Shown here: positions 9,003-58,892 of the stretch, piece by piece
Layout of the letters: each line of letters opens with the position of its first letter
Numbering within the stretch: position 1 is the first letter of the stretch
Source of the DNA: Planctomycetes bacterium syqfu
GTDB lineage: Bacteria; Planctomycetota; Phycisphaerae; Phycisphaerales; Phycisphaeraceae
Assembly (NCBI GenBank): GCA_020974905.1
Contig: CP087563.1
Coordinates: 7,130,001-7,194,000 of the forward strand
Length of the DNA stretch: 64,000 bases
Reading direction: 5' to 3'
Made by a program: the position numbers and the translations under genes
Notes under the pieces: model-generated
What the model saw: the letters and a program-made list of their open reading frames with translations, nothing else
The model's database searches: none
What the model was told of the DNA's origin: nothing

Positions 9003-9748
9003 AACAGACCCACCGCATCAATGACCGCTTGATCAAGAATACCTTCGTGCGGTTGGACGTTGGCAGGATCGCAACGTGGGATCACAGCAAGCACATCAAT
9101 GCCTGTCATGCGTTTGAGCCATCTGGCATTGGAGAGCATCGACGGATCTTCGAGTTTGCCCCGTGATGAAGCATCGGGTTCGTGACGGTTAAACACCACG
9201 CCGGCGACTTTGCAGCCAGCCTGCTTCAGACACTTGATCGTCATCGTCGTGTGATTAAGCGTCCCCAATCCCGCGTCTGCAACGATCAAAACCGGGTAAC
9301 CAATTGCTACGATCAGATCGAGCATTGAACGCTTGGGGTGCTCTGCGTCAATCGGCACGTAGAGTCCGCCTGCTCCTTCAACCAGCAGACAGTCACTGAT
9401 ATCCTGAATGTGATGCAGGCTCTTGACGATGGCCTCGGCGTCGAAGGGAATGTTCTCGGTCTCTGCTGCAACGCCGGGGGCAAGCGGTTGGCGGTAGCGG
9501 ATCGGTGTGATCGTCTCCAACGGCACGCGACAGTCCGCAAAGTGTGCAATCGCTTCGGTATCCGGGCAAACCAATCCTTCACGGTCTTTACGACATCCCG
9601 ATGCCAGCGGTTTACTCACACCAACACGCATGCCTTGATCTCGTAACACGCTTGCCAATGCGCAGGTGACCACCGTCTTGCCAACGTCGGTTCCTGTTGC
9701 GGTGATGAATAAACCGGGGATGTTGAGTTTAAGTCCTTCAAGTTCCAT
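8969..9748 (-). CDS. bioD: Dethiobiotin synthetase
   Basis: A 259-residue ATP-dependent dethiobiotin synthetase, the penultimate step of biotin synthesis (7,8-diaminononanoate + CO2 + ATP). The P-loop GTDVGKT is at residues 19-25, preceded by the family's hydrophobic strand LFITAT. Lys and Ser of VSKPLASG match the substrate-binding region, and VEGAGGLYVPID is the second nucleotide-binding signature. The tail after residue 220 carries the usual variable end. No other biotin gene is in the window, so bioD is separated from the rest of the pathway. A TACAAT hexamer lies exactly 6 nt before the ATG, with no Shine-Dalgarno, suggesting a leaderless message. The 3' end overlaps the AsmA-like gene by 34 bp, tail to tail. 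Confidence 0.93.
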   Translation of the reverse strand: MELEGLKLNIPGLFITATGTDVGKTVVTCALASVLRDQGMRVGVSKPLASGCRKDREGLVCPDTEAIAHFADCRVPLETITPIRYRQPLAPGVAAETENIPFDAEAIVKSLHHIQDISDCLLVEGAGGLYVPIDAEHPKRSMLDLIVAIGYPVLIVADAGLGTLNHTTMTIKCLKQAGCKVAGVVFNRHEPDASSRGKLEDPSMLSNARWLKRMTGIDVLAVIPRCDPANVQPHEGILDQAVIDAVGLFYWPDRLGAAK

Positions 9749-9754
9749 GCGGAT

Positions 9755-9783
9755 ATTGTAGGGTAAAACGTTTGTGTTGTTAG
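9755..9783 (-). promoter_or_regulatory. Putative bioD promoter, leaderless arrangement
   Basis: On the minus strand, CTAACA (9783-9778; 4 of 6 to TTGACA) is separated by 17 nt from TACAAT (9760-9755). The ATG begins 6 nt after the -10 box, so transcription is predicted to start at or within a base or two of the start codon. Confidence 0.5.
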
Positions 9784-9830
9784 GTTGTCTTGTGATGACC
9801 GGCCGACATGTTTTTGTATGTGATGTTTTA

Positions 9831-9870
9831 ACGCGAAGGCGCGAAGAGCACGAAGATCGCGAAGATCAAG
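9831..9870. repeat. GCGAAG-rich intergenic repeat
   Basis: A short run of imperfect GCGAAG/CGAAGA units in the 250-bp gap between bioD and the next gene. Related wording (cttcgcg..., cttggcg...) recurs near 45210, 45420 and 56680. The rest of this gap shows no other recognisable feature. Confidence 0.5.
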
Positions 9871-10003
9871 ACAAGATGAGTTGATATCTGGATTACTTAT
9901 GTTTGTCGTGGTTTTTGAAATTGAATAATAAATGTGACTTTGCCTTTGCTACCTTCGTGTTATTCACACCTTCACGTTGAAAGTAAACCGCACATCAAGC
10001 CAG

Positions 10004-11215
10004 TTAAGAGATCGACACCATCAATGCAGCAAAGACATCCGGATCAAGCAACTGGCGAACCAAGCGATTGGCAGCAGACGTCCGTAAGACATGAGCGCGG
10101 CCAAAAGCGTGGTCAATCGCACCGATGGCATGATCCATGGGCGCATCGGTTTGGGTAAAGAGTCGGGCGGTGCCTAGGCATAGGGGGTAAAGCAGACACA
10201 AACTGCGCAGTCCGTCGAGCAGGTCCAGATCGTGATTGGCTGAACCCATAAAACCCAACGTTTGCAGACGGGTTTTGATCAGTTGATCCAGTAATGACAG
10301 GTCGATTTTCCCGTCGTGGGTTTTATCAAAGAGTTGGGAACGCTTGCCACTGCCTGCTGGGTACATGCTGCCCAGTGCGTTGACGGAGACCTTACCTGAA
10401 CCGAAAAACACGATGCTTGCTGCACGCTTGATCCGACCGACGCGTTTATCCAGCACGTCTTCATCTCGGCGGAGATACATGGATAACAGGTTGGCCAGCG
10501 TATAGCGATCGACTTTGCGTAACTTCGCTGCGTCGGTTTCGTCAACCCATTTGGTGACGTGTTCAACCAGTGGTTGATACAACTGTCCCAACGCTTCACG
10601 ATCCAGTTCGGTCGCTTGCTGATGGCTAAGCCAATCGCAGAATCCGTAAAGGAACATGGCCTTGTGAGCAACCGTCGGCAAACTCGGCAGCAGGGCGGAG
10701 AGAAAATCGACGATCCCCTGAATCTGCTCTTCATCCAGATTACATCGCTGCTGCTCGGTGAACGGGCGGGCATCCTCGAGCACGATGTCAGCGAGTTTAC
10801 TTAACTGGTTGGACTTGTACCGATCACCTTTGTTCTGTCGGACGGAGGGACAGTCATGACGCGGGGTGATGCTGACCTTCTCACCAAATGTTCGATGCAT
10901 GGAGAACGGGAAAAGTTGGCATCCCACCGGTTTGGCGGACTCCCCGAATTGTTCGTGAATCCGGCAGTAGCCGTTGTCGGGATTGAGAAAAATGCAATCG
11001 CCATTGGGCTTGTGTGCAAGGAAGGTCTGTCCACTGTGGAGCATGTTGATGGTTTGCCTACCCAGCGGATCACCGGTCGGCCAACGCAGCGAAGCAATGC
11101 GATCGATCTCATCCGGCAGTAACTGGACATGCCAATGCCGGCAGCAATTCCCGCAGCTATGACAGGAGAAACGCTTGTCTTCGAGGATGTTGAGCTTGAG
11201 TGGCTTTGCCGTCAT
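10004..11215 (-). CDS. YkgJ-family cysteine-cluster protein
   Basis: A 403-residue protein whose N-terminus has the Cys cluster typical of YkgJ-type putative zinc- or iron-chelating proteins: FSCHSCGNCCRHWHVQL (residues ~13-30), then more Cys at CIFLNPDNGYCRIHEQFG and VGCQLFPF. The remaining ~270 residues are mostly helical and not recognised. The function of the family is not established; an Fe-S oxidoreductase-like role is often suggested. The ATG at 11215 is preferred over GTG 11221. It starts 18 bp after the purL stop on the same strand, so the two are probably co-transcribed, although no metabolic link is evident. Confidence 0.75.
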   Translation of the reverse strand: MTAKPLKLNILEDKRFSCHSCGNCCRHWHVQLLPDEIDRIASLRWPTGDPLGRQTINMLHSGQTFLAHKPNGDCIFLNPDNGYCRIHEQFGESAKPVGCQLFPFSMHRTFGEKVSITPRHDCPSVRQNKGDRYKSNQLSKLADIVLEDARPFTEQQRCNLDEEQIQGIVDFLSALLPSLPTVAHKAMFLYGFCDWLSHQQATELDREALGQLYQPLVEHVTKWVDETDAAKLRKVDRYTLANLLSMYLRRDEDVLDKRVGRIKRAASIVFFGSGKVSVNALGSMYPAGSGKRSQLFDKTHDGKIDLSLLDQLIKTRLQTLGFMGSANHDLDLLDGLRSLCLLYPLCLGTARLFTQTDAPMDHAIGAIDHAFGRAHVLRTSAANRLVRQLLDPDVFAALMVSIS

Positions 11216-14936: not shown

Positions 14937-15257
14937 ATGTCTGATTCGGGGAAGCCATCCAACGTTCCGAGCTTGAATCGCGTGTTAAATCATCCATTGG
15001 CTGAGGCATGGATAGGTTTTGCTTTTGGTTATCTCATGGTGGCAATTTTGGCTTTTGTCGCATTGATGGGTACGGTCAGTTTGCGCGTCATTGTTTGGGA
15101 ATTGCCACCAATGCCTAAAGAGAATGGACATGCAATCTTTCTCACCATGATGATCGGTGGTGGCTTCGTTTTACCTGCCATCACGGGATTGTGCTACGCC
15201 TCCTATCGCTACAAACGCGCTAAACGCAGAATAACCAATCAACCCTCCCGGCTCTGA
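14937..15257 (+). CDS. Small two-helix membrane protein, hypothetical
   Basis: 106 residues with two predicted membrane segments: roughly residues 26-52 (WIGFAFGYLMVAILAFVALM...) and 72-90 (ILTMMIGGGFVLPAITGLC-like stretch). A basic tail follows (YRYKRAKRRITNQPSRL), placing the C-terminus in the cytoplasm. No family was recognised. A TTG six codons earlier (14919) is possible, but the ATG is chosen because a TACAAT box sits 6 nt before it. The 3' end overlaps the convergent XylR-like gene by 19 bp. Confidence 0.55.
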   Translation: MSDSGKPSNVPSLNRVLNHPLAEAWIGFAFGYLMVAILAFVALMGTVSLRVIVWELPPMPKENGHAIFLTMMIGGGFVLPAITGLCYASYRYKRAKRRITNQPSRL

Positions 15258-16378
15258 TGCAGATCGCGATATTGCTTGGGCGTGTGCTTCATGGCTTTGG
15301 CAAAGGTCGCATGAAATCTTGCACGTCCTGAAAAACCCGACGCTTCACCCACCTCTGCAATGGATAAATCCGTATCAATGAGCAGGCGACAGGCACGCTC
15401 GATATGCACACGCTGAATCTCTTCATAAACAGAACGCTGTAAAAACTGTTGGAATCGTCGTTCCAAAACACGCCGGGAAATCGGTACGCGCGAAACAATG
15501 TCCGTTACCGAGATCGGCTGGGCAGCATGTTGGCGAATGAAGGCTAACGCAGCGGTGATGCTCTCATCCGCAATGGCGGTGATGTCCGTGGACTTGCGCG
15601 TCACCGCCTGCACGGGTGGGAACTTGGTAATGCAGTTGTCGGTCATCTCCCCCTTGATCATCTGGTCAAGCAGACGCGCAGCTTCAAAGCCGATCTTAAA
15701 TGTCGGCAAATCCACACTCGATAACGACACATGGCTGGCTTCCACCAGCAGGTCATCATTGTCCGCCCCCAACACCGCGATTTGCTCAGGTACCTTCAAG
15801 CCCAGGGACTCAGCGATGTTGATCACTTTGATGGCATACTCATCGTTGGCTGCAAACAACGCAGCAGGAAGTTGAAGTTGTTTTAGCAAGTGTTCGATCT
15901 GGTCAAGGTTCCAGATGGCGTCGACCTGATATTCCGCGGATCGCACGCCGTCAGCAAAACCGCGATGACGTTGTGCAACGAACGATGAAATCTCCGGCAG
16001 CAGATCCGAGTGTCCAACGAAAGCAAAGTGTCTGAATCCACGGTCCAGAAAATGCTTCGCTGCCAATCGTCCAATCAGATAGTCATCCGCCAGCACCGAT
16101 GTCGGATACAGTCCGGGCAGAATCGACGAGACACAGACGACGGGCTTGTTGATCTGGTTAATCGTCTTGAGCGTCTGCTCGTCGGGGATCATGACGATCA
16201 GGCCATCACCTTCCCATTGGTCAATGAACGAAGCCGGTTGGAAAATCCATGTCCGGAGCATGGAGAGCTGCCACTGCTGATAGCGTTGGTAGGCCAGTAC
16301 ACCGCGCGTGACACCCCGACCGTATGTGCCGATTGGGTCGATCATGATGCCGACATTAATTGGGGAGATTTTGGACAT
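15239..16378 (-). CDS. XylR-type AraC-family regulator with sugar-binding sensor domain
   Basis: A 379-residue regulator. Residues ~1-265 form a LacI/periplasmic-binding-protein-like sensor (PINVGIMIDPIGTYGRGVTRG, FRHFAFVGHSDLL, VAVLGADNDDLL-type strand). Residues ~275-375 form a double helix-turn-helix AraC domain (ITAALAFIRQHAAQPISVTD, VSRRVLERRFQQFLQRSVYEE-like helix, SIAEVGEASGFSGRARFHAT). This is the architecture of Escherichia coli XylR, which senses a sugar and activates adjacent genes. The start at 16378 is ATG; an upstream TTG (16420) would only add a non-conserved extension. It is divergent from the pseudopilin/GH50 agarase genes, so it is the likely agar- or galactan-responsive activator. 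Direct repeats suited to an AraC protein lie in the shared intergenic region. Confidence 0.88.
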   Translation of the reverse strand: MSKISPINVGIMIDPIGTYGRGVTRGVLAYQRYQQWQLSMLRTWIFQPASFIDQWEGDGLIVMIPDEQTLKTINQINKPVVCVSSILPGLYPTSVLADDYLIGRLAAKHFLDRGFRHFAFVGHSDLLPEISSFVAQRHRGFADGVRSAEYQVDAIWNLDQIEHLLKQLQLPAALFAANDEYAIKVINIAESLGLKVPEQIAVLGADNDDLLVEASHVSLSSVDLPTFKIGFEAARLLDQMIKGEMTDNCITKFPPVQAVTRKSTDITAIADESITAALAFIRQHAAQPISVTDIVSRVPISRRVLERRFQQFLQRSVYEEIQRVHIERACRLLIDTDLSIAEVGEASGFSGRARFHATFAKAMKHTPKQYRDLHQSREG

Positions 16379-16587
16379 AAGGAGCCATCGATGGTTGGGG
16401 GCGATATCGTATTGCGTCAAGTGTAAAATGTGACGGAAAACGGGTCAATGGTCAGAAATAAAAAACGTGTTACGTGACTGGTGTGATGTGTTAAAGCCTT
16501 TGTTGTTATTCGCAAGGTGTCAATAATATTTGCAAATCAGGGGGAAAATGGATGTTTGGGATCATTCTGGGTGGGGGAAGTTGAATG

Positions 16588-20324: not shown

Positions 20325-20475
20325 GCAGTTCAAATCATTATTCTCCATACAGTCTCTGATTTCGTCATTCCCGCGCAGGCGGGAATCCAGTGGCATTCAG
20401 GTGACGCTTGCATATTTCACTGGACTCCCGCCTGCGCGGGAGTGACGGAAAGTGGAGATTAATGATTTGAACTGC
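20325..20475 (+). repeat. Palindromic intergenic repeat, copy A (full length with terminal inverted repeats)
   Basis: Core of 85 bp at 20363-20447: CGTCATTCCCGCGCAGGCGG... to ...CCTGCGCGGGAGTGACG, two hairpins with a GTGACGCTTGCA-like centre. Outside it are the inverted ends GCAGTTCAAATCATTAT and ATTAATGATTTGAACTGC, making a 151-bp foldback unit. It lies between the GH50 gene and the convergent LacI gene, where it may also end transcription. Confidence 0.85.
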
Positions 20476-21637: not shown

Positions 21638-22465
21638 ATGAATTCAGATCGGACACCTGTTGCCCACGCATTTACGCTCATTGAACTGCTGGTGGTCATC
21701 TCCATCATCTCGCTGCTGATCTCCATTCTCCTGCCGGCGTTGGGGGCAGCACGCAAGTCCGCGCGGGCGGTGCAGTGTCAGACAAACTTACGACAGGTGG
21801 GGATGCTTCACGAAATTTATCTCAACGACTTTAACGGACGCTACATTCATCACCGCGGCAACTGGCAGGCGGGGCAAGGTGAATTCTGGCCGACTGTGCT
21901 GCTTGATTATATTGCAGACAAACGCAAGATCGGTGACGGTTCTCGCCGCTTCACAGTCAAGCAGTGGCAACTGATGCTCTGTGGCGAACAGGATCATGCC
22001 TACATCCAGGCCATCACCGATGAGGCTTCGCAGACTGTCTGGTCGGACTTCATCGCGCGACATGTGGACTTTGGTTACAACTACGTGACGCTTGGGTCCA
22101 GCGCACTTTACACCTCACCGCAATGGCAAGGTTCAATCAATCCCGAGTACGGCCCAAGTGTCACGGTTCAGGAAGTCATCCAACCCTCACGCAAGTACAT
22201 GATGATGGATGCCAAGGCCACCGGCCCGACACAGTCTTTTGAAGGTGCAACGGGATATTACGCGGGGTCATACCGTGTCTCACACAAGAGCACATCCACC
22301 GTCTCGTCACTGACGGGCATTCCTGCTGCAAGGCATAACAGCAATGTCAATATTCTCTTTTGCGATGGCCATGTCAAAAGCATGAAAGTCGATCCGGACG
22401 CGCCCTATAACGCCTTGGATGAGTTTTATTCCAAGACCGTTTCCACCCCGTGGTCACGCAATTGA
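21638..22465 (+). CDS. Pseudopilin-like protein, module 2
   Basis: 275 residues. The leader [20 protein letters not shown] is followed by the hydrophobic helix ending [13 protein letters not shown], nearly the same as in the protein at 16767. The globular domain has CQTNLRQVG, tyrosine- and tryptophan-rich loops, and the C-terminal [20 protein letters not shown], which is the conserved DGH motif. Prepilin peptidase processing is expected. It is the first gene of a likely operon (pseudopilin, GH42-like enzyme, GH27, TIM-barrel protein) divergent from a LacI regulator. Module 1 repeats the same arrangement with a different enzyme and regulator. Confidence 0.85.
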
Positions 22466-22515
22466 TCCAATCCATCAACGCGATCCGATCTGGATCATCA
22501 TCGACGGAGATTCCA

Positions 22516-24783
22516 ATGAAATTGTCAGCCCATCTGGTGTTATCCCTGTGTCTGTTCTTCGCGGCTTGTGCAAAGGCTCAAACGCTCGAACAACTCACAC
22601 AGGAAGTAACCGCACTACAACAATGGCGAACCCAACTGGCCAATACCGGCCTGGACACATCCTATGAACAGGTGACGTTGCATACCGTCAGTTTGTTCGC
22701 AGACTACATTGTTTATGACCGGGCGCATCCTGATGCGCTAGCAGATGTTTATCAACGCTATCACAAGCAGATTCCCGACACACCCCAGGCCATGGCCGCA
22801 GCGTTACCGGATCAGGAGTTGGCTGACTGTTGGCAGTTACTCGATGAATGTCGCCAATCACTTCAAGCATTGGCCGATGGAACCGTCACGCGACGCAACG
22901 TTCCGCGATGGGATGGCAGGCAGATCACCATTGGCGATGGTCACTTTGTCCAGAACAATCGTCCCGTTTTCCCAGGCACCTTCATCTGGATGCCCTACAC
23001 CGAAGCGAACTATCAGGCTTTTGGTTCATTCAAGGGAGCCTATACCACGCTCAAGTATCTGGCGCCTGACATGACCGGAACACGTGCAAATGGCACGGTA
23101 CTGGACATGAAATCATTCCCGCCGGAGGATACGCAGTTTCCCAGCGGCTTGTTTCTTGGGCATGTCCCAGCAGAATGGATGAAGCAGCAGTATCCACAAA
23201 TCCAGATCGGCGCCCGGCTGTTCACCAAGTACGACATTGACAATCCGCTGATTCGTGATTGGATGACGGTCCTGCTGGGCAAAGCGGTTTCTGAAAGTCG
23301 GCCTATTAACCCCATCAACCTGTACCTGCTTGCCAACGAACCGCATTGGGCATCGGCTGAAGGTGGCTGGTTGTCTTCAGAAGCTTCGGAGCACACATTT
23401 GCCAAATTCCAATTATGGTTAAGCACGCACTATACCGACATCGCAGCACTCAATGCATCATGGCAGTCGAGTTTTCCCAGCTTCGATGCGGTGACGATTG
23501 ACATCCCCATCGATGGTCAACTGCGTGGCAGCGCCAAGTGGTATGACTGGTGCCGATTCAACATGGATCGTGTCACCGAGTGGTTCACCTTTCTCAAGAC
23601 CAACATGATCCAGCATGATTCTGCTGCCAAATGCACCATCAAAATGCTCGGCGGACACATGGAAGATTCCAGCCGCGACCACGGATTGGATATTGAGCAA
23701 CTGGTCAACTTGCAGGACTTTCCCGGTCTTGACGCCCACCCGTCACCAGCCAATGCCGTCTTTCATGATCCGGTCAAAGCTGCCAAGCGTGCACATCCCT
23801 ATGCCCTGGACTGGCGGTCGCAAACCAGCATGCTCGACATGATCAAATCCGTCGCGCCGAACAAGCCCGTTTACGATTCGGAATGGCATGGCATGGGAAC
23901 CGTTGGCTGGATCAGTCACGATATGTCTGACGATTTTATCCGTGCAGCGATGTGGATGAGTTTCCTGCATGGTAATAGCGCGATCAACACCTGGTATTGG
24001 GCACGCAAAGCCGATGGCAAACCCTTGCCCGCGATGCTTGCAAGTCCCATGGCTCAGCCCATCGCCCTTAACGCCTACGGCCAGACACTCCATGAACTCA
24101 ACGCCTATGCACCGGAGATTGCAAAGCTCGCATCGACACCCAAGAACGTACGTATCTTTTACACCGAAGAGTCCGCCATCCAGGATGCCAACTATGGCGA
24201 CGACCTGATCACCATCCACGAAGCCATGACACTCACCGGGGCCAATGTCGGTTACCTAACGCCAAAAATGATTCTTGACAGTTCAGCGACCTGCCAGATG
24301 CTTGTGGTGCCCAACGCGAAATATATCAGCAATGCAAGTCTCAATGCCCTGGCCTCATTTACCGGCAATGTGATTTACATCGGGCATGATCATTTCCAGT
24401 TTAATGAGCGAGGCATCACACGGACGGGAACACTGCCTGTGACGATTGACCCTGCCAGACGATTTGGTTTGCAGGAAACAGACATGATGACATGGACCTT
24501 GCGCAGTCAGTTTGCCAGCGCCGGTGTCCTGCCGGAGATTGTTGCCATCAACCGCGCGACCGGCGCATTACCCATGGGGGTTTTGATTCGTGTTGCTGCT
24601 ATTGAAAACGGCCAGTACATCATTTCGCTGGTCAACACATCCGTGGATGAAATGGACATTGTCCTCAAACGCAACGGCACAAGAGTCGATGCCGAAAATC
24701 TTACCGGCCAAGAAGGCACGCTCTTTGACGGGGTACTGCCATCGCTCGAAGTTCGCTTGGTCAAGGTTCAAACAAGTCAGTAA
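22516..24783 (+). CDS. Exported clan GH-A glycoside hydrolase with GH42-like architecture
   Basis: 755 residues from ATG 22516, chosen because GGAGA lies 5 nt before it. The N-terminus MKLSAHLVLSLCLFFAACAKA is a signal peptide; the FAAC could also be a weak lipobox. Residues ~25-120 are helical and unassigned. The TIM barrel follows, with a clan-A acid/base candidate in LYLLANEPHW and a nucleophile candidate in VYDSEWHGMG. A C-terminal Rossmann-like part (VRIFYTEESAIQDANYGDDL, QMLVVPNAKYISNASLNALA) resembles the trimerisation domain of GH42 beta-galactosidases. The motifs deviate from typical GH42, so it may be a separate family. The GH27 gene is 11 bp downstream, suggesting a role in galactan or galacto-oligosaccharide breakdown. 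Confidence 0.65.
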   Translation: MKLSAHLVLSLCLFFAACAKAQTLEQLTQEVTALQQWRTQLANTGLDTSYEQVTLHTVSLFADYIVYDRAHPDALADVYQRYHKQIPDTPQAMAAALPDQELADCWQLLDECRQSLQALADGTVTRRNVPRWDGRQITIGDGHFVQNNRPVFPGTFIWMPYTEANYQAFGSFKGAYTTLKYLAPDMTGTRANGTVLDMKSFPPEDTQFPSGLFLGHVPAEWMKQQYPQIQIGARLFTKYDIDNPLIRDWMTVLLGKAVSESRPINPINLYLLANEPHWASAEGGWLSSEASEHTFAKFQLWLSTHYTDIAALNASWQSSFPSFDAVTIDIPIDGQLRGSAKWYDWCRFNMDRVTEWFTFLKTNMIQHDSAAKCTIKMLGGHMEDSSRDHGLDIEQLVNLQDFPGLDAHPSPANAVFHDPVKAAKRAHPYALDWRSQTSMLDMIKSVAPNKPVYDSEWHGMGTVGWISHDMSDDFIRAAMWMSFLHGNSAINTWYWARKADGKPLPAMLASPMAQPIALNAYGQTLHELNAYAPEIAKLASTPKNVRIFYTEESAIQDANYGDDLITIHEAMTLTGANVGYLTPKMILDSSATCQMLVVPNAKYISNASLNALASFTGNVIYIGHDHFQFNERGITRTGTLPVTIDPARRFGLQETDMMTWTLRSQFASAGVLPEIVAINRATGALPMGVLIRVAAIENGQYIISLVNTSVDEMDIVLKRNGTRVDAENLTGQEGTLFDGVLPSLEVRLVKVQTSQ

Positions 24784-28754: not shown

Positions 28755-28891
28755 TTTTTGATCATACCTGACTCGCATGGAAGGTTCACTTCGAAGAAGT
28801 CCAAATCGTGACGGCTGAAAAGCTGAAAGTGAAGTATTTTTCTCAAATCTTTACCGCAACATGGTGAAAAATAAGTAAACTATCTCTTTTT

Positions 28892-28908
28892 GGGCAACAA
28901 TTGTACCC
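28892..28908. promoter_or_regulatory. Candidate operator upstream of the GH2 gene
   Basis: GGGCAACAATTGTACCC contains the perfect 8-bp palindrome ACAATTGT flanked by GGG/CCC. It lies 57 bp before the GH2 start, in the divergent amidase/GH2 spacer. No regulator gene is adjacent. Confidence 0.3.
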
Positions 28909-28964
28909 TTTTGGTACCTGCTGTATACATATTGCCCGATGCTCGACTCGATGAAAGGTATTTC

Positions 28965-31424
28965 ATGTCCACGACATTGAGTTTGCTTGGTGATTGGCAG
29001 TTGACCTGCAAAGAATCCGACATGGTTTGGCAGACCCAGTTACCCGGTGATGTGCACAGCGCATTGTTGGAACACAAGCACCTGACCGATCCCTACGTCG
29101 GCACACAGGAGAATGCTGCCCAGTGGGTCCACGAACGTCACTGGACTTTCAGTCGACGTTTTGAAATCGATGCAGCGATGCTTGAACATGACCATGTGTA
29201 CCTCAATGCCGAGATGGTCGACACCGTTGCCAGCATCAAAATCAACGGCAAAAAAATCCTCGACACCGACAATCAGTTCCGTCGGTACCGCGTTGATGTT
29301 GCCAAGGTTCTCGTCGAAGGCAGTAACAGCATCGAGATCATTTTCATGCCGCCGATTCTTGAAGCGACCAAACGCGCATCCAGGTATTCGTTGGACATGC
29401 CTTACACCACCAACAACCGCGTGCCGCATATGAACCATCTGCGCAAGACCGCATGTCACGGCGGCTGGGATTGGGGCGTGTGCCTTGTGCTCATCGGTGT
29501 GTATGGCGATCTGTCACTCAACGCTGTGAACACCGCGCGGCTTGAACATGTCTACACCACGCAAACGCATCACAAAAATAAAGTCGATGTGGATGTCACC
29601 GTCGAACTGCTTGGCATCACTGCTGAGAAAATCGAAATGGAGATTGAACTGGCAGGGCAGCAGATTACCAAGACCCTTGCCATCAAGGCCGGTGAACAAA
29701 CCGTCACCCAACGCATCACCATCAACAAACCCAGACTGTGGTGGCCAGCAGGACATGGCGATCAACCCCTCTACGATCTGTCCGTGCGCGTCGGTGATCA
29801 AGCTGTCTCCAAGCGCATTGGTTTACGACATATTCACTGGGACAACTCCCGCGATAACATCGGCACGCAGATGACACTTTACGTCAACGGCAAACCGATC
29901 TTCTGCAAAGGTTCAAACTGGATTCCAACCGATGGACTTTCAATTCGTCAAACCGATGAAGTCTATGAACGTCTCATTGGTGACACCGTGGCTGCGAACA
30001 TGAACATGCTCCGTGTCTGGGGTGGTGGTCAGTATGAACGTGATCGCTTCTATGAACTCTGCGATGAGAAGGGCGTGATGATCTGGCATGACCTGATGTT
30101 TGCCTGCCAGCTTTATCCCTTTGATGATGACTTTATTGACAACGTTGCTCACGAAATCGACTACCAGGTCAAACGCCTGCGCGATCATGCCTCCATGGTT
30201 CTCTGGTGTGGTGACAATGAAGTCGAAGGCGCTTTGGGGTGGTTTGAACAAACTCGAAAACATCACGATACCTACCTTGTTGCATACGATCGTCTGAATC
30301 ATGCCAACGGCAAGGCAGTCGCCAAGGCCGACCCCAATGTCACCTATTGGCCATCCTCACCGAGCAATGGTCCGGGGCAGTTCGGCAATGTCTGGGATGA
30401 TGACTCCTCCGGCGATATGCATTACTGGGCGGTCTGGCATCAAGGCAAAAGCTTCAGTTCCTACTACGATGTCATCCCGCGTTTCTGCTCGGAGTTCGGC
30501 TACCAAAGTTTCAGTTCCATCGACCTGGTTAAAAAGTACATCGATCCGGCACACTTCAACCCGACTTCACCGCAGATGGAACATCACCAGCGAAACCCGC
30601 GGGGCAACTCGCTGATCATGGAAATGTTCACGCGTTATTTCCGCATGCCCACCAGCTTTGAAAACACGCTTTACCTGTCGCAGGTTCAGCAGGCCATCGC
30701 GATCAAAACGGCAGTCGAATATTGGCGGTCCCTGCGCCCTGTCTGCATGGGCACACTCATTTGGCAACTCAATGACAACTGGCCTGTCGCATCCTGGTCG
30801 AGCATCGAATACGACGGATCATGGAAGCAACTTCACTATCATGCCAAGCGTTTTTATGAACCGGTGATGGTGACGATGTTCCATAAGTCCGACGATGTCG
30901 TGCAGGTGGTGGGCATTAACGATCACTTCAAGTCCGCCAAGTTGCAGCTTAAATTGCAACTCGTGGACTTTGCAGGCAAGGTGCATAAGGTCTGGACGCG
31001 TGAACTCTCGGTTAAGGGCAGCAGCTCCAAGACGATCATGAAGCTGCCGATTGAGAAGCTGCCGATCCCACGTAATGAAGGTGTGCTTGTTGCGGATATC
31101 ACGGTCACCCAACCTGATGGCAAGAAGACCAAGCTGCGCAACACGCATTTCATGGATGTCTACAAACGCTGTGAACTTGCTGATGCCAACGTCACCGCCA
31201 ACATCAAGCAGCAGGGCAAAGGTTTTATCGTCGAACTCAAAACGGATAAGCCCGCGTTCTTCGTCACCTGTGCGTTTACCCATGTCGCAGGCATCTTCGA
31301 TGACAACTCCGTTGATCTGCTCCCCGGCAAGGCAACCAAACTCAAGTTCACCCCGCGTGAAAAAGTCAGTCTAACCCAACTCAAAAAAGCCCTGCACGTC
31401 ACACATCTGCGGATGACGTACTAG
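28965..31424 (+). CDS. GH2 beta-mannosidase, cytoplasmic
   Basis: 819 residues from ATG 28965 (AAAGG 6 nt before it). Domain order is that of GH2 beta-mannosidases: jelly-roll sugar-binding domain (LGDWQLTCKESDMVWQTQLP, RHWTFSRRFEID), immunoglobulin-like domain (~195-285), TIM barrel (KGSNWIPTDGL, VWGGGQYERDRFYELCDEKG), then C-terminal beta domains. The acid/base is Glu419 in WCGDNEVEG (most relatives read G-N-N-E) and the nucleophile Glu510 in RFCSEFGYQSF. It releases terminal beta-1,4-mannose from manno-oligosaccharides. There is no signal peptide, so it acts inside the cell. The GH113-like and GH130 genes at 53-58 kb would supply matching substrates. The final 26 bp overlap the convergent gene. 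Confidence 0.92.
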   Translation: MSTTLSLLGDWQLTCKESDMVWQTQLPGDVHSALLEHKHLTDPYVGTQENAAQWVHERHWTFSRRFEIDAAMLEHDHVYLNAEMVDTVASIKINGKKILDTDNQFRRYRVDVAKVLVEGSNSIEIIFMPPILEATKRASRYSLDMPYTTNNRVPHMNHLRKTACHGGWDWGVCLVLIGVYGDLSLNAVNTARLEHVYTTQTHHKNKVDVDVTVELLGITAEKIEMEIELAGQQITKTLAIKAGEQTVTQRITINKPRLWWPAGHGDQPLYDLSVRVGDQAVSKRIGLRHIHWDNSRDNIGTQMTLYVNGKPIFCKGSNWIPTDGLSIRQTDEVYERLIGDTVAANMNMLRVWGGGQYERDRFYELCDEKGVMIWHDLMFACQLYPFDDDFIDNVAHEIDYQVKRLRDHASMVLWCGDNEVEGALGWFEQTRKHHDTYLVAYDRLNHANGKAVAKADPNVTYWPSSPSNGPGQFGNVWDDDSSGDMHYWAVWHQGKSFSSYYDVIPRFCSEFGYQSFSSIDLVKKYIDPAHFNPTSPQMEHHQRNPRGNSLIMEMFTRYFRMPTSFENTLYLSQVQQAIAIKTAVEYWRSLRPVCMGTLIWQLNDNWPVASWSSIEYDGSWKQLHYHAKRFYEPVMVTMFHKSDDVVQVVGINDHFKSAKLQLKLQLVDFAGKVHKVWTRELSVKGSSSKTIMKLPIEKLPIPRNEGVLVADITVTQPDGKKTKLRNTHFMDVYKRCELADANVTANIKQQGKGFIVELKTDKPAFFVTCAFTHVAGIFDDNSVDLLPGKATKLKFTPREKVSLTQLKKALHVTHLRMTY

Positions 31425-53467: not shown

Positions 53468-54520
53468 ATGTCCCAGCAAATTCCCATCGGTTGTCGTGAA
53501 GTTCATCGCGGCGTGACGTTCGGTTTTTATGCTCGCAATGGTGTGTTCTCTTCCCAATGGGCCTTGGATCAGGTTCAGAAAATGGTGGACCTGAACATCA
53601 ATTGGGTGGTGCTCATTGCTACCGTCATGCAGGACACCCCATACTCCGATACACAGTATCGCGACTTTGAAGTGACCCCCGGTGATCATGAGTTGATGAC
53701 CATCATCGACGCCTTGCATCAGGCAGGGATTCGCGTACATCTGCGTCCCATGCTTGAAACACAAAATGGTCAGGGGCGTCTGCAGGTTCAATACTTCGGG
53801 GACGGCATGGGAACACGTATCCCCGGACGTGGCAGTGATCACTGGGCACGCTGGTTTAACTCCATGCGCAAACGCAGTGTCTACTACGCACGTATCGCTC
53901 AGCAGACCGGCTGTGAGATGTACGGTCTGGACAGCGAACTGGATCGCTTTGTGGACCAGAACGAAAACTGGAAGTCAGTCGTCAAAGCTGTCCGCGAAGT
54001 CTATGACGGGCCGGTGAGTAGCTGCCACACCACGCACACCGGTGTGGTCGATTTTGATAAGCACCTGGCCAATAAGGATCACTGGTGGTACGACCTGGAT
54101 ATGCTCGAACTCTCCTGCTATGCAAAGGGTCCGCAGCATCTTAATGCCAGTGTTCAGGAAATTGTGGACCAGCTCAAACCCACAGTCGAACGTTTCCGTA
54201 ACATGGCCAAGACCTTCGGCAAACCGGTCATGCTCGGGGAAGTCGGTTGCACATCATCCACCGGTGGTGCGATGCATCCCTCCGGTTGGCAGGGTGATGG
54301 CAAATACGATCCACAGGAACAAGCCAACTATCTCACCGCAGTTCTCGAAAGTTTCTGGAACGAGCCCTGGTGGTACGGCATGTATTGGTGGAAGTGGGAC
54401 GAACAAAACAAACGTGAACAATTCCTCAATGATCCTGCAGGTGACAAGGGCTTTATCGTTGATGGTAAACCCGCAGCACAAATCATGAAACAATGGTTCG
54501 CCCGAACCGATCGCCCATAA
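53468..54520 (+). CDS. GH113-like glycoside hydrolase (putative beta-mannanase), paralogue 1
   Basis: 350 residues, a single TIM barrel with no signal peptide. Family-like motifs: RGVTFGFYARNGVFSSQWAL near the start, INWVVLIATVMQDTPYSD, YGLDSEL with acid/base Glu157, VMLGEVGCTSS with nucleophile Glu258, and the aromatic block WWYGMYWWKWDEQ near the end. GH113 enzymes cleave internal beta-1,4-mannosidic bonds; the assignment is inferred from these motifs. A paralogue follows 57 bp downstream, and a GH130 phosphorylase lies in the same cluster. A cytoplasmic location implies it trims imported manno-oligosaccharides. A weak hairpin with a T-run (54522-54545) separates it from the next gene. Confidence 0.7.
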   Translation: MSQQIPIGCREVHRGVTFGFYARNGVFSSQWALDQVQKMVDLNINWVVLIATVMQDTPYSDTQYRDFEVTPGDHELMTIIDALHQAGIRVHLRPMLETQNGQGRLQVQYFGDGMGTRIPGRGSDHWARWFNSMRKRSVYYARIAQQTGCEMYGLDSELDRFVDQNENWKSVVKAVREVYDGPVSSCHTTHTGVVDFDKHLANKDHWWYDLDMLELSCYAKGPQHLNASVQEIVDQLKPTVERFRNMAKTFGKPVMLGEVGCTSSTGGAMHPSGWQGDGKYDPQEQANYLTAVLESFWNEPWWYGMYWWKWDEQNKREQFLNDPAGDKGFIVDGKPAAQIMKQWFARTDRP

Positions 54521-54577
54521 TAGCCCATAAAACAGGCTGTTTTTTCTCCATTGGTTTAATCAGATTGAGACAGACAC

Positions 54578-55600
54578 ATGCAAGAACCTTACCCGATTCA
54601 TCGTGGCATGACTTTCGGTTTCTACGCACGCAACGGATACTTCTCCAGTGACGAAGCCAGGCAGCAAGTCGATAAAATGGCAGCGCTGGACATCAATTGG
54701 GTTTGCCTGGTCTCCACTGTCCTGCAGGAAAACATGATGAGTGGTCGTCAGTTTCGTGACTTTGAAATGACGCCTGCTGATGACGAACTCCGTGACATCA
54801 TCGACTACATTCACGAGAAGGGTATGAACGTCCAACTGCGCCCCATGCTCGAATGCTGGGATGGCACGCAACGTTGTCACATCCATCTCCCACCTGACCA
54901 TGAGATCATGCCCGGCAAGCCCATTCGCCATTGCTCGATCTGGTTCGACTCCATGACCAAACGCACGCTGCATTACGCCCGACTTGCTCAGCGTGCAGGT
55001 TGCGAAGCCTTCGGCATCGACAGTGAAATTGATCAAATTTTAAATTACAACGAGCAGTGGAAAGACGTCGTCAAAGCCGCACGCAGTGTCTACGACGGAC
55101 ACCTCACTTCAAGTCATACCCGCTGGGCAAACTTTGAAAAACAATTGGAAAATGCGGACCACTGGTGGTTCGACATTGACTCCGTGGGAACCAGTTTTTA
55201 CGATCCCGTCTCGGATAAAGTCGGTTCGACCATGGATGAAATGCTCGCCTTCCTCAAGCCTTTACTCGAAAAGCATCGCAATATCGCCAAGATGTATGGC
55301 AAGCCCTACTACTTCGGTGAGTCCGGCTGCTGTGCGACCGCAGGGGCAACCCGCAAGCCACACGGCTGGGATAATCCCGGCGGCTATGACGGGCAGGAAC
55401 AAGCCAATTTCATGGAAGCTGTCTTCCGGACGTTCTGGGATGAACCGTGGTGGATGGGGCTTTACTGGTGGAAGTGGGATGAACAAAATTACCGCCCGCA
55501 ATTCCACAATGATCCACGCGGCAACAAGGGCTTTACCATCGATGGCAAGCCGGCAGCAGATGTCATGAAAAAATGGTACAGTCGCACCGACCGTGTTTGA
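54578..55600 (+). CDS. GH113-like glycoside hydrolase (putative beta-mannanase), paralogue 2
   Basis: 340 residues, clearly homologous along its whole length to the previous gene (shared HRGMTFGFYARNGYFSS, DINWVCL, FRDFEMTPADDELRDIIDYI, WWMGLYWWKWDEQNYRPQF). Catalytic candidates are Glu150 in FGIDSEIDQ and Glu248 in YYFGESGCC. The loop around residues 95-120 differs most (CWDGTQRCHIHLPPDH), which could change chain-length preference. No signal peptide. Most likely a duplication followed by specialisation. It is followed by repeat copy I and a LamG protein. Confidence 0.7.
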   Translation: MQEPYPIHRGMTFGFYARNGYFSSDEARQQVDKMAALDINWVCLVSTVLQENMMSGRQFRDFEMTPADDELRDIIDYIHEKGMNVQLRPMLECWDGTQRCHIHLPPDHEIMPGKPIRHCSIWFDSMTKRTLHYARLAQRAGCEAFGIDSEIDQILNYNEQWKDVVKAARSVYDGHLTSSHTRWANFEKQLENADHWWFDIDSVGTSFYDPVSDKVGSTMDEMLAFLKPLLEKHRNIAKMYGKPYYFGESGCCATAGATRKPHGWDNPGGYDGQEQANFMEAVFRTFWDEPWWMGLYWWKWDEQNYRPQFHNDPRGNKGFTIDGKPAADVMKKWYSRTDRV

Positions 55601-55602
55601 AC

Positions 55603-55752
55603 GCGTTTCAAATAATTAATCTCCACTCTCCGTCACTCCCGCGCAGGCGGGAGTCCAGTGGAACCTACAAGCGTCAACTGCATGCCACTGGATTTCCGCC
55701 TGCGCGGGAATGACGAAATAAGAGATAGCGGGTGATTAATGATTTGAACTGC
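55603..55752 (-). repeat. Palindromic intergenic repeat, copy I
   Basis: Core 55631-55715, minus orientation; inverted ends GCGTTTCAAATAATTAATCT and GATTAATGATTTGAACTGC give a 150-bp unit, one of the most complete copies. It starts 3 bp after the second GH113-like stop codon. Confidence 0.88.
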
Positions 55753-55789
55753 TCTGATCGCCATTTTGATGTCCACATAGAGAGAGAAC

Positions 55790-56542
55790 ATGCCCGCCAA
55801 AATCCATCCCACCGACATTGACAATCTCATCTGCTTCTGGGATTTCCAGGAACCTACAGGTCAACCCCGTGTTGCTAAAGGCCCCAACAACTACGCACTC
55901 ACCGAGCAGGCAGGCCCGATGCAACGCGTGGGTGAAGGCGTCTTCGGTGATCATGCCATTAAGGTGGATTATGGGCAGTGGCTGCGCGTCCCCAAGTTTG
56001 AAGCACCCGCGCTGGACATCCCCGGCAAGGATGCACAGGTCTCCGTCGTGGCGTGGCTCAAACGTTACAAAAAACCCGAAGGTGAATGCGAGTTCGTTGC
56101 AGGCCTTTGGGACGAAACCCACAAACTTCGCCAATACGGCATGTTCCTGAACCTGGGCATTTGGGACAGTGCCAACCAAGTCTGTGGCCACGTCTCCAAC
56201 CTCGGTGGCCCGACACCCGGTTACAAATACTGCATGGACGCCTCCATCGGCGCGACACCCGTTAAGCTGGATCAATGGTGTTGTGCAGCATTCACCTACG
56301 ACAGTCAACAGGCCATAAGCTATCTCAACGGCATGCTTGATGAGCGTCCCGAACGCAATCCCTATCCCTACCCCGGCGGACTCTTTGATGGCGGTGATCG
56401 ACCCGCGGACTTTACTGTCGGCTCGGTCACCCGCAGCGGGAAAATGGGCAACTTCTACGTCGGACTCCTCGGCGGGGTGGCCGTCTTCAACCGTGCCCTG
56501 ACCCAGGAAGAAATCAAGGGACTCGCAGCCTGGATCAAGTAA
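55790..56542 (+). CDS. LamG/concanavalin A-like domain protein, cytoplasmic
   Basis: 250 residues with no signal peptide. One LamG-type jelly roll: LICFWDFQEPTGQPR, VKVDYGQWLRVPK-like strand, DIPGKDAQVSVVAWLKRYKK, DQWCCAAFTYDSQQAISYLN, and the closing LLGGVAVFNRALTQEEIKGL, which is the classic LamG end. Such domains bind sugars or serve as spacers in secreted proteins; a stand-alone cytosolic form is unusual. Its place between the GH113-like pair and GH130 suggests a role in handling manno-oligosaccharides. Confidence 0.75.
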   Translation: MPAKIHPTDIDNLICFWDFQEPTGQPRVAKGPNNYALTEQAGPMQRVGEGVFGDHAIKVDYGQWLRVPKFEAPALDIPGKDAQVSVVAWLKRYKKPEGECEFVAGLWDETHKLRQYGMFLNLGIWDSANQVCGHVSNLGGPTPGYKYCMDASIGATPVKLDQWCCAAFTYDSQQAISYLNGMLDERPERNPYPYPGGLFDGGDRPADFTVGSVTRSGKMGNFYVGLLGGVAVFNRALTQEEIKGLAAWIK

Positions 56543-56575
56543 TTCAGCGATCTGTGCAAATCAATCCTTGTTGTC

Positions 56576-56760
56576 TTAACCACAGAGTCACAGAGACACA
56601 GAGCCTGAAAAAGACAAAAAACTCAAACAAAGACGCCAAATCGCAAAGAAACGGTTAACTTCTTTCTGGCTTGGCGTCTTTGCGTCTTGAGCGAAGCGAG
56701 CGTGAGATTGTCTTACTCGGTTTTGAAATCTGTGCCTCTGTGCCTCTGTGCCTCAGTGGT
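56576..56760. repeat. Composite CACAGAG / CTCTGTG intergenic inverted repeat
   Basis: TTAACCACAGAGTCACAGAG... at the left and ...CTCTGTGCCTCTGTGCCTCA... at the right are inverted arms. Between them lie AGACGCCAAATCGCAAAG and CTTGGCGTCTTTGCGTCTTG, a second inverted pair. The block fills most of the 352-bp LamG-GH130 gap. Confidence 0.75.
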
Positions 56761-56839
56761 GAAGACAGTTGTGATAATCATGTCTGAGGCGACTCAATAA
56801 TACATTATTGCCCGCCACACTTGTCAATCGAACAAGTCG

Positions 56840-56859
56840 GATGTATCTTTTGATGTATC
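56840..56859 (+). promoter_or_regulatory. Candidate regulator site upstream of GH130
   Basis: Two exact copies of GATGTATC (56840-56847 and 56852-56859), 12 bp apart, 36 bp before the start codon and just upstream of a TAAAAT (56870-56875). Confidence 0.35.
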
Positions 56860-56894
56860 GTCTGTATTGTAAAATTTATGAAAAGGAATACAGA

Positions 56895-58079
56895 ATGGCC
56901 TTTGACACATTCGACTACGCTCAGGCTCTTAGCCAACTCAACAATCGTTACCAGCAACACGTCAGCCGCAAGAATCAGGTGGATGCCAACTGGTACAACG
57001 GCGTTTACGAACGCTATGTCGATCCGGTGCTCACCCGTGATCACGCACCGGTGAGTTGGAAGTATGATCTGAATCCCAAGACCAACCCGATGCTGCTCGA
57101 ACGTCTTGGCATCAATGCGACCCTCAACAGCGGGGCGATCATACGTGATGGTAAAGTGCAACTGGTTGTCCGTGTCGAAGGCAATGACCGCAAATCCTTT
57201 TTTGCAATCGCTGAAAGTGAATCCGGCGTGGACGGTTTTGAATTTAAGAAAGACCCGATCCTCCTGCCACAGACGGATCGTGATGATGTCAACGTCTATG
57301 ACATGCGTTTGACCGAACACGAAGACGGATACATTTACGGCCTGTTCTGCACCGAACGCAAAGACCCCGATGCCCCTGAGGGTGATACCTCTATGGCAGA
57401 GGCGCAGTGTGGCATTGTCCGCACCAAGGACCTTATCAACTGGGACCGTTTACCCGATCTCAAATCCCCATCACCGCAGCAGCGCAACGTGGTGCTTCAC
57501 CCCGAATTCGTCAACGGTGAATACGCGTTTTACACCCGCCCGCAAGACGGTTTTATCTCCACGGGTAAAGGTGGGGGCATTGGTTGGGGGACCTGCAAGG
57601 ATATGACCAATCCGGTGATTGATCACGAAACCATCGTCCATGCCAAGACGTATCACACCATCTATGAAGTCAAAAACGGTCAGGGCCCGCAACCCTTCAA
57701 GACTGACAAAGGTTGGCTGCATCTGGCTCACGGTGTGCGTAACTGCGCATCAGGTTTACGCTATGTCCTATACATGATGATGACCGATTTGGACGAACCC
57801 TGGAAGGTGACGCATCTTCCAAGTGGTCACTTCATCTCGCCGCTGGGTTCAGAACGCGTGGGCGATGTGTCCAACGTCACCTTCTCCAACGGCTGGGTGA
57901 AACGTGAGAATGGTGAAGTGCTCATCTACTACGCATCGTCGGATACACGCATGCATGTTGCTACGAGTACCATTGACCGTTTGGTGGATTACACCATCAA
58001 CACGCCAGAAGATCCGTTTAAATCTCACCTGTGTGTGCAGCAGCGATTGGACTTGATCAACGCCAATCGCTCACTGTGA
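56895..58079 (+). CDS. GH130 phosphorylase, probably 4-O-beta-mannosyl-glucose phosphorylase type
   Basis: 394 residues from ATG 56895 (AAAGGA 7 nt before it). GH130 enzymes are inverting phosphorylases that split beta-mannosides with phosphate, giving mannose 1-phosphate. Seen here: NPMLLERLGINATLNSGAII, LVVRVEGNDRKSFFAIAESE, DVNVYDMRLTEHEDGYIYGL (Asp136, the likely catalytic acid), then GWGTCKD, AKTYHTIYEVKNGQGPQPFK and HLAHGVRNCASGLRYVLYMM. Length and motifs fit the GH130_1 group. It is cytoplasmic and would salvage energy from mannan fragments made by the GH113-like pair. A terminator follows. Confidence 0.9.
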   Translation: MAFDTFDYAQALSQLNNRYQQHVSRKNQVDANWYNGVYERYVDPVLTRDHAPVSWKYDLNPKTNPMLLERLGINATLNSGAIIRDGKVQLVVRVEGNDRKSFFAIAESESGVDGFEFKKDPILLPQTDRDDVNVYDMRLTEHEDGYIYGLFCTERKDPDAPEGDTSMAEAQCGIVRTKDLINWDRLPDLKSPSPQQRNVVLHPEFVNGEYAFYTRPQDGFISTGKGGGIGWGTCKDMTNPVIDHETIVHAKTYHTIYEVKNGQGPQPFKTDKGWLHLAHGVRNCASGLRYVLYMMMTDLDEPWKVTHLPSGHFISPLGSERVGDVSNVTFSNGWVKRENGEVLIYYASSDTRMHVATSTIDRLVDYTINTPEDPFKSHLCVQQRLDLINANRSL

Positions 58080-58154: not shown

Positions 58155-58892
58155 TTACTTGATATCAGACGGCGTGAGTTTGCCATCTTTGAGATCTTTG
58201 ATTTGTTGTTCGGTCAACACGTTTTTCCAGACCGCGAGATCGTCGATCATGCCGGTGAAAAAGCGATTGCCTTCGATGCCGGATTGGCCGAGGATCAGGT
58301 CTGCGGTGTTTGCCATCGGCATTTCTTTCTCAGCACGGATGGTGTGTTCATGTTTTTTGCCATCAACGTAGTCAATGAACTTCGTGCCATCGAAAGTGAA
58401 GACAACGTGATGCCATTTGCCGTCGAGGAGTTTACCGATGGGACCATGCTGGTTGAATCCCTTGAGGGTGTCGACACGGTAGTGCAGTTCATCGGTCTTG
58501 GCGGAGCGCTGAATCTCAATGCCAACGCTTGTCTTTTCAACACGCTGCATTTTGCTGATGATGCGAGCCCACATACCCGGGCTGTCGGCTTTGCCGTTAA
58601 ACCAGAGACTGATGGTGAAGGTCTTGCCATCCAGAAGTCCATCGGTATGCGGGATGTTGACGGTGGCATTATCCGCCAGTGAGAGGGCTTGACTGCTCTT
58701 GATGCCAGCAGGAACTTCGTCGGTGAAAGTGGGTTTGCCTGTCTTGGCGACAGCATTGCTGGAGCCTGCGGTGGCTTCCTTGAGATCACCCTCCATCGGC
58801 CAGTATCCAACGAGTTGTGCCTGGGCAGGCAGTGTCAGACAGGTGGCTACCAACATGAAGCAGACTGCAAAAGTTAAATGGATGTTGCGCAT
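58155..58892 (-). CDS. Secreted LamG-domain protein
   Basis: 245 residues. Signal peptide MRNIHLTFAVCFMLVATCLT..., cleavage near AQA-Q. The rest is one LamG jelly roll: LVGYWPMEGDLKEATAGSSN, SLADNATVNIPHTDGLLDGK, FTISLWFNGKADSPGMWARI, DGKWHHVVFTFDGTKFIDYV and MIDDLAVWKNVLTEQQIKDL. Such domains bind glycans or surface proteins. CAGGAG lies about 8 nt before the ATG. Unlike the LamG protein at 55790 it is exported. A structured spacer separates it from the pectate-lyase-fold gene upstream. Confidence 0.82.
   Translation of the reverse strand: MRNIHLTFAVCFMLVATCLTLPAQAQLVGYWPMEGDLKEATAGSSNAVAKTGKPTFTDEVPAGIKSSQALSLADNATVNIPHTDGLLDGKTFTISLWFNGKADSPGMWARIISKMQRVEKTSVGIEIQRSAKTDELHYRVDTLKGFNQHGPIGKLLDGKWHHVVFTFDGTKFIDYVDGKKHEHTIRAEKEMPMANTADLILGQSGIEGNRFFTGMIDDLAVWKNVLTEQQIKDLKDGKLTPSDIK

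Follow-up and report, generated by a model that had tools for sequence, protein, structure and literature searches.

A conserved GH113-LamG-GH130 gene cassette of a planctomycete as a candidate salvage kit for imported beta-mannosides

Introduction

In Roseburia intestinalis, the glycoside hydrolase family 113 (GH113) enzyme RiGH113 is intracellular and acts on oligosaccharides, and the mannan loci of this bacterium also encode two GH130 proteins and an epimerase, as described in the available part of the report (PMC6385246). Five GH113 enzymes of clade 1 are exo-acting on oligosaccharides, and 83% of the proteins of this clade lack signal peptides; in the available portion of the same study, sequence comparison failed to separate endo-acting from exo-acting GH113 enzymes, and no substrate was found for clade 5 (PMC9032380). 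Here, we describe a cassette of four neighboring genes on the + strand, encoding two GH113 proteins (GH113a and GH113b), a LamG protein, and a GH130 protein, in a 64,000-nt stretch of the genome of Planctomycetes bacterium syqfu (positions 7130001 to 7194000 of the single 7.38-Mb contig CP087563.1; hereafter, the window).

The best-supported account of the cassette, which we hold with about even confidence, is that of a cytosolic salvage kit for short imported beta-mannosides. The two GH113 proteins, both of a subfamily with a remodeled cleft, would trim imported beta-mannosyl or glucomanno-oligosaccharides by retaining hydrolysis through a conserved pair of Glu residues, and the GH130 protein would then phosphorolyze mannosyl-beta-1,4-glucose to alpha-mannose 1-phosphate and glucose. 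Because the two GH113 types are old and carry Gly and Gln, respectively, at a cleft position where characterized enzymes have Trp, they probably differ in the chain ends or units that they accept. The LamG protein would most likely be a noncatalytic oligosaccharide-binding beta-sandwich that holds substrate for the cassette enzymes. Use of mannan by the cassette is plausible, as an earlier note on this DNA had proposed. New here are the two old GH113 orthologue groups, the subfamily marked by loss of the Trp, its sugar-acid neighbors outside the window genus, and a LamG fold nearest to domain 4 of the arabinanase AbnA. The GH113 subfamily, with its cleft change, two old types, and recurrent sugar-acid partners, offers a testable handle on specificity in GH113.

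A conserved cassette of predicted cytosolic proteins

Gene order and strand are identical at the loci of two related metagenome-assembled genomes (MAGs), NAT22 (L031) and UBA7800 (L032), and the cassette is therefore not a chance arrangement. The genes are separated by 57, 189, and 352 nt in the window, by 48, 32, and 332 nt in NAT22, and by 28, 25, and 166 nt in UBA7800; the second gap, so much wider in the window, contains a REP-like inverted repeat (Table 1). Nei-Gojobori ratios of nonsynonymous to synonymous divergence (dN/dS) were 0.074 (GH113a), 0.025 (GH113b), 0.080 (LamG), and 0.055 (GH130) against NAT22 and 0.081 (GH113a), 0.077 (LamG), and 0.075 (GH130) against UBA7800, for which GH113b could not be computed owing to saturated dS. 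All seven computable comparisons of the eight (0.025 to 0.081) thus reflect purifying selection. The GH113 pair is found in three of the four genus genomes searched, that of syqfu included.

GH113a, GH113b, and LamG have open frames of 355, 343, and 253 codons for proteins of 350, 340, and 250 residues, respectively. Since these frames exceed the proteins by just 3 to 5 codons, in-frame export signals are excluded for all three, whose cytosolic location can be taken as certain from frame limits. For GH130, a cytosolic location would depend on the chosen start, as another 39 open codons precede it (433 versus 394 codons). We place the start most likely at ATG 56895 because the orthologue frames in L031 and L032 are 394 and 395 residues long and start at the corresponding ATG, and the TTG at 56808, which gives the longest frame, was not adopted. 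From the chosen ATG, the N terminus (MAFDTFDYAQ) appears signal free by eye. The description of the cassette as intracellular in the earlier note therefore stands by frame limits for three proteins, including the LamG protein that it had singled out as lacking an export signal, and by the choice of start for the fourth.

The assignment of the last gene to GH130 proved sound: its PF04041 match scores 78 bits (cut-off, 26). The nearest solved chains are 4-O-beta-D-mannosyl-D-glucose phosphorylases, namely, 3was and 5ay9, which we take to be from B. fragilis and R. albus, respectively; the next chain scores 94 bits, more than 400 bits lower. Asp136 aligns with Asp131 of 3was, presumably the catalytic Asp. 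By profile and nearest characterized relatives, the protein resembles the mannosylglucose phosphorylase class, and the release of mannose 1-phosphate as the last step, which the earlier note cited as the known outcome of GH130 phosphorolysis, is well supported by homology. Relatives of GH130 (E ≤ 1e-60) occur in 17 of the 392 genomes sampled from the phylum. A CE-type 2-epimerase and an SSS-type transporter adjoin GH130 at 4 of the 16 other loci of the phylum (L171, L172, L175, and L176); they do not do so in the window.

Two further elements were observed at the cassette. The REP-like repeat CCGCGCAGGCGGGA, allowing at most one mismatch, occurs at 15 sites in the window between positions 20371 and 55707 (0.04 expected), with six opposed pairs 55 nt apart, one of which lies between GH113b and LamG. 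A second LamG protein (positions 58155 to 58892, - strand), with a signal-like N terminus by eye, adjoins the cassette both here and at L031 and L032.

Table 1. Coordinates of the cassette genes and associated features in the window
Feature	Position	Strand	Description
GH113 type a	53468-54520	+	350 aa; acid/base Glu157, nucleophile Glu258; Gly at AaManA W103 position; PF22612, 249.2 bits; a-clade 100/99
GH113 type b	54578-55600	+	340 aa; Glu150/Glu248; Gln at AaManA W103 position; PF22612, 247.5 bits; b-clade 97/95
REP-like inverted repeat, 31-nt arms	55631-55715		In GH113b-LamG gap
LamG/concanavalin A-like protein, cytosolic	55790-56542	+	250 aa; PF13385, 42 bits; model pLDDT 95.8; VIA Z 22.4 to AbnA domain 4 (5ho2)
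Second palindromic element	56628-56682		In 352-nt LamG-GH130 gap
GH130, 4-O-beta-D-mannosyl-D-glucose phosphorylase-like	56895-58079	+	394 aa; 524/507 bits to 3was/5ay9; start set from homologues
GH2 protein with mannosidase Ig-like domains	28890-31424	+	GH2 and mannosidase Ig-like domain matches

A GH113 subfamily with a remodeled cleft and two old types

GH113a and GH113b are 51% identical. Both score far above the PF22612 cut-off of 27 bits, and a placement of the pair outside GH113 was rejected on these scores. The two Glu pairs singled out in the earlier note align with E151/E231 of AaManA (4cd6), and its reading of the proteins as two GH113-like paralogues was borne out; in a profile search for another GH family, the pair stayed in GH113. 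Of the cleft residues in AaManA numbering, R104, Y203, and W281 are kept in both proteins, and the replacements are N97 to E, W103 to G (Gly103 of GH113a) or Q (Gln98 of GH113b), E282 to K, and Y299 to F.

The available part of one study of GH113 calls eight substrate contacts of PcMan113 strictly conserved, namely, N98, W104, R105, D183, Y204, W282, D283, and Y300, and reports that mutation of W104, at the position of AaManA W103, lowers activity (PMC10992819). In the pair, R105, Y204, and W282 are kept; N98, W104, D283, and Y300 are replaced; and the region of D183 is gapped. Only W104 is telling among these, because the D283 position is occupied by Glu even in AaManA and many other GH113 proteins vary at N98, D283, and Y300. 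In a survey of 64 GH113 proteins (17 of the subfamily kind and 47 others), W103 was kept in 42 of the 47 others, among which K282 occurs 18 times, F299 16 times, and N97 at most once. Accordingly, K282 and F299 were dropped as hallmarks, and it is the loss of Trp103, on the residues compared, that marks the subfamily; the other three cleft changes do not. In a larger set of 96 distinct GH113 proteins, selection by E97, G/Q103, and K282 yielded a subfamily of 36 proteins, all of which also keep R104, E151, E231, W281, and F299, residues that lie outside the selection criteria.

A tree of 25 rows, with long branches found mainly among the outgroup rows, resolves two clades. One (100/99) joins GH113a of the window with proteins of B12222, B1221, and a Verrucomicrobia MAG; the other (97/95) joins GH113b with proteins of B12222 and the same Verrucomicrobia MAG. 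Kiritimatiellota B12222 and the Verrucomicrobia MAG have one GH113 of each type, and B1221 has two of type a. By their placement in the tree, GH113a and GH113b are two old orthologue groups, and their coexistence in B12222 and the Verrucomicrobia MAG lends indirect support to a division of labor between the paralogues; a split along chain length, as put forward in the earlier note, would be one conceivable form of it. A third GH113 of the syqfu genome (positions 5608978 to 5609748) falls outside the subfamily. Within the phylum to which B12222 belongs, 35 of 387 genomes, B12222 and B1221 among them, have a GH113b relative (E ≤ 1e-50), and 20 high-ranking relatives from this phylum were examined with longer flanks. 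NAT22 carries an extra b-type GH113 (L141, positions 8533 to 9648) in the vicinity of genes for an SSS transporter, a GDSL esterase, and a protein with a SASA domain, as well as genes that look by eye like LacI-type regulators.

The LamG protein

The PF13385 (Laminin_G_3) match of the LamG protein exceeds its cut-off of 27.6 bits, and the structure model has a pTM of 0.94 (pLDDT in Table 1). In a VIA fold search, the best match of the model was residues 641 to 846 of AbnA in 5ho2 (rmsd, 2.2; 199 aligned residues; 19% identity), followed by the AbnA domain 4 entry 5hon (Z 21.9), which by its title is complexed with an arabino-oligosaccharide. Other matches include ConA-like lectin domains (Z 18 to 19) and the GH54 arabinofuranosidase 1wd3 (Z 18.3). 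Receptor-binding domains of clostridial toxins were also matched and set aside, as they have only the ConA-like fold in common with the protein. When solved chains were searched with a profile of the LamG alignment, the matches were marginal (best E, 0.003), and in the literature searches made on the LamG family, we found nothing that could be tied to the protein.

The LamG alignment (34 rows, several phyla) has 22 invariant positions, including W107, R114, Q115, Y116, F119, and S136, in two strongly conserved stretches. This degree of conservation, together with the match to 1wd3, whose matched range we take to be the catalytic domain, would suit an enzyme with an active site of its own on a ConA-like fold. 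The top match, ahead by about 3.6 Z units, is however AbnA domain 4, which is distinct from the GH43 domain of AbnA, and no catalytic family profile matches the LamG protein; we therefore regard an enzymatic role as rather improbable. The fold fits a sugar binder, in keeping with the soluble manno-oligosaccharide binder that the earlier note put forward as an unusual use of this fold, whereas the genomic surroundings of LamG elsewhere, described below, speak against such a role.

The family is conserved over several phyla: at E ≤ 1e-10, it occurs in 20 of the 392 genomes of the phylum, and it was found in 21 named contigs, including those of Paenibacillus, Anaerolineae, Armatimonadota, Dysgonomonas, Kiritimatiellota, and Verrucomicrobia. 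Closer members lack signal-like N termini. In a crude hydropathy count, none of 26 homologues at ≥225 bits exceeded the threshold, compared with six of eight at 140 to 225 bits (one of the eight being a fusion measured over a long stretch) and six of seven below, with L011 appearing secreted by eye though under the threshold. The homologue in L040 is lipoprotein-like. At L067 (positions 7919 to 10129), a 736-residue protein has a LamG domain preceded by about 465 residues without a Pfam match.

Neighbors of LamG elsewhere are diverse (sulfatase, alpha-rhamnosidase, amidohydrolase, MocA, SusD, and an ABC binding protein), and a view of LamG as a mannan-specific family was not adopted on account of this variety. 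The same diversity raises the question of whether LamG travels with the cassette as an unrelated passenger that serves some other function. Among the 21 named LamG genomes, a full-length GH113 (≥238 bits) occurs in 6, a GH130 relative (>450 bits) in 7, and both in 5; the seven from Paenibacillus and Anaerolineae lack a full-length GH113 (partial matches of 27.7 and 26.5 bits occur in two Anaerolineae) and show no match above 63 bits to the cassette GH130. Yet three species have LamG within the cassette, at a dN/dS near 0.08, and it is present in all three genomes of the 392-genome sample, that of syqfu included, that were shown to have an intact GH113 of the tight subfamily. B12222 encodes LamG, a GH113 of each type, and GH130 at unlinked sites on a single chromosome. 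A passenger role is, on balance, unlikely, though it deserves to be kept in view. G185, with a decayed subfamily GH113 copy, has neither LamG nor GH130 of the cassette kind.

Beta-mannoside salvage versus sugar-acid substrates

LamG occurs in 7 of the 17 genomes of the phylum with GH130 (0.87 expected). This co-occurrence (p = 4e-6; 3e-5 without the syqfu genome; 3e-4 outside family f16) is consistent with a common role but is not proof of one, because the genomes are not independent, lineage being a confounder, and the effect is absent within f16 (counts of 3, 2, 4, and 1 for 10 members among the matches listed; p = 1).

The last of these results weighs against beta-mannoside salvage, as do the following. 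At 33 LamG loci, of which one was a duplicate contig, no relative of GH113 or GH130 was found near LamG at any of the 32 other distinct loci, within the flanks examined and for frames of at least 100 aa. The fourth genus genome, G393 (78% complete; 560 contigs), has one distant GH113 only. Four of the eight supposedly strictly conserved substrate contacts are replaced in the pair. No cytosolic mannobiose 2-epimerase was found in the genome: its PF07221 proteins, all located away from the cassette, comprise one GlcNAc-epimerase-like protein (362 bits, below the 600 that the model requires; 374 bits to the best solved match), two CE-like proteins (152 and 153 bits; cut-off, 800), both with a hydrophobic, signal-like N terminus, and one weak match. 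The sole GH26 match in the genome is weak and partial (32.5 bits over 102 of 311 positions; cut-off, 20.2), GH5 not having been searched. Finally, the 36 subfamily proteins comprise 7 from the window genus and 29 from outside it; LamG and GH130 lie within 6 kb for 6 of the 7, and neither gene of the cassette kind does so for any of the 29, of which 9 have same-strand sugar-acid genes within 1.5 kb and 12 within 6 kb. These neighbor counts are descriptive rather than a test, as flanks often end at contig ends and labels were drawn from the same loci.

Such neighbors suggest another substrate, in that the subfamily might cleave beta-glycosides bearing a sugar acid (aldonate or uronate) rather than plain mannan, with the Trp loss serving the new substrate and the genes coming to lie beside a mannosylglucose phosphorylase in the window genus. 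Among the 29 proteins outside the genus, 8 have a same-strand gene for a UxuA or MR_MLE dehydratase no more than 6 kb away, as does none of the 7 within it (8 of 36 overall; any sugar-acid gene, 12 of 36). Genes for a dehydratase (MR_MLE or UxuA), GH10, GH113, SDR, an RraA-like aldolase, and IclR recur together, differently ordered, in genomes from two phyla: MR_MLE, GH10, GH113, SDR, and RraA in L142; GH113, SDR, RraA, GH10, and MR_MLE in L144; IclR, MR_MLE, GH113, SDR, a TIM-barrel-like protein, and RraA in L143; SDR, IclR, a fucosidase-like protein, MR_MLE, UxuA, and GH113 in L284; and IclR, MR_MLE, two GH10 proteins, UxuA, GH113, RraA, and SDR in L285. Three UxuA-like neighbors score 228 to 235 bits in Pfam (cut-off, 23.7); against an NCBIfam subfamily model with a cut-off of 191, their scores are 197, 207, and 187 bits. 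The uniformity of the cleft residues across all 36 proteins, selected and unselected alike, would also suit a changed substrate, and the syqfu genome retains a 76%-identical MR_MLE dehydratase (positions 5058739 to 5059926).

Some of the nearest relatives outside the subfamily (L267, L268, L114, and L111) have sugar-acid neighbors as well. Against a sugar-acid substrate, the enrichment of sugar-acid genes within 1.5 kb (9 of 36 versus 5 of 60; p = 0.036) is weak and biased, the labels stemming from the same loci. The three UxuA-like proteins fall below the uxuA equivalog cut-off (143 to 157 versus 199.55 bits), and the MR_MLE proteins miss all specific models. K282 and F299 are shared with other GH113 proteins, as noted above, and the partners in the window genus are GH130 and LamG. 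The dehydratase of the syqfu genome lies far from the cassette, flanked by genes that look by eye sulfatase-like and secretion/pilus-ATPase-like, and no SDR, RraA, GH10, or IclR matches were found beside it. We consider the sugar-acid substrate unlikely. At L111 (G185; positions 1036 to 1824), one frame combines a dehydratase-like part with the end of a GH113, next to IclR-like and SDR-like frames, which looks like a decaying copy of the dehydratase-GH113 gene set.

The two proposals could also be combined. The subfamily would then consist of cytosolic exo-enzymes for oligosaccharides with a sugar acid at the reducing end, such as the C1-oxidized manno-oligosaccharides that oxidative cleavage produces; the Trp loss would fit the acid, and Lys282 could hold its carboxylate. 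Mannonate would be released to UxuA/MR_MLE dehydratase and RraA aldolase, GH130 would take the neutral mannosyl moiety, and LamG would capture such acid ends as a soluble cytosolic protein. This scheme was improbable from the outset and was lowered slightly further because Lys282 is not subfamily specific.

Salvage of beta-mannosides remains our preferred account of the cassette. That the GH113 proteins are mannan enzymes at all nevertheless appears less secure than first assumed, because the cleft Trp is lost and many relatives neighbor sugar-acid catabolism genes. "Beta-mannan," the substrate named in the earlier note, may accordingly have to be replaced by a narrower or different one, given a GH130 that resembles a disaccharide enzyme, the changed cleft, and the sugar-acid neighbors elsewhere.

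Other mannan-related genes

The GH2 protein elsewhere in the window (Table 1) had been called a beta-mannosidase. A GH2 protein is indeed present, and the specific label rests on its domain make-up, because NCBIfam gives only a weak 33-bit beta-galactosidase match. No 2-epimerase, transporter, or alpha-galactosidase was found in the cassette or the scanned neighbors; transporters and alpha-galactosidases were not searched for across the whole genome. A GH42-like protein (positions 22450 to 24783; 38 bits) is encoded about 6 kb from a XylR-like regulator (positions 15239 to 16420).

Comparison with known systems

The closest described pathway is that of R. intestinalis (RiGH113, RiMep, GH130_1, and GH130_2), with which the cassette shares an intracellular GH113 and a GH130 of the mannosylglucose type. 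Set against the available description of that pathway (PMC6385246), the cassette is without the 2-epimerase, ABC transporter, and esterase, and it has two GH113 types, LamG, and a remodeled GH113 cleft; the linked 2-epimerase and oligosaccharide transporter of a Roseburia-type locus are seen neither in the cassette nor in the scanned neighbors. With AaManA (4cd6), AxMan113A (5ylh), and PcMan113 (as far as described in PMC10992819), the pair shares the family, the catalytic Glu pair, and R104, Y203, and W281; it differs in the subfamily-specific change of W103 to G/Q and in N97 to E, E/D282 to K, and Y299 to F, of which K282 and F299 are common in other GH113 proteins. GH130 is similar to 3was and 5ay9 over its full length, with Asp131 aligned, and its genomic partners differ from theirs. 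The LamG protein has the ConA-like fold of AbnA domain 4 (5ho2 and 5hon), from which it differs in its low sequence identity, its stand-alone cytosolic form, and its own set of invariant positions.

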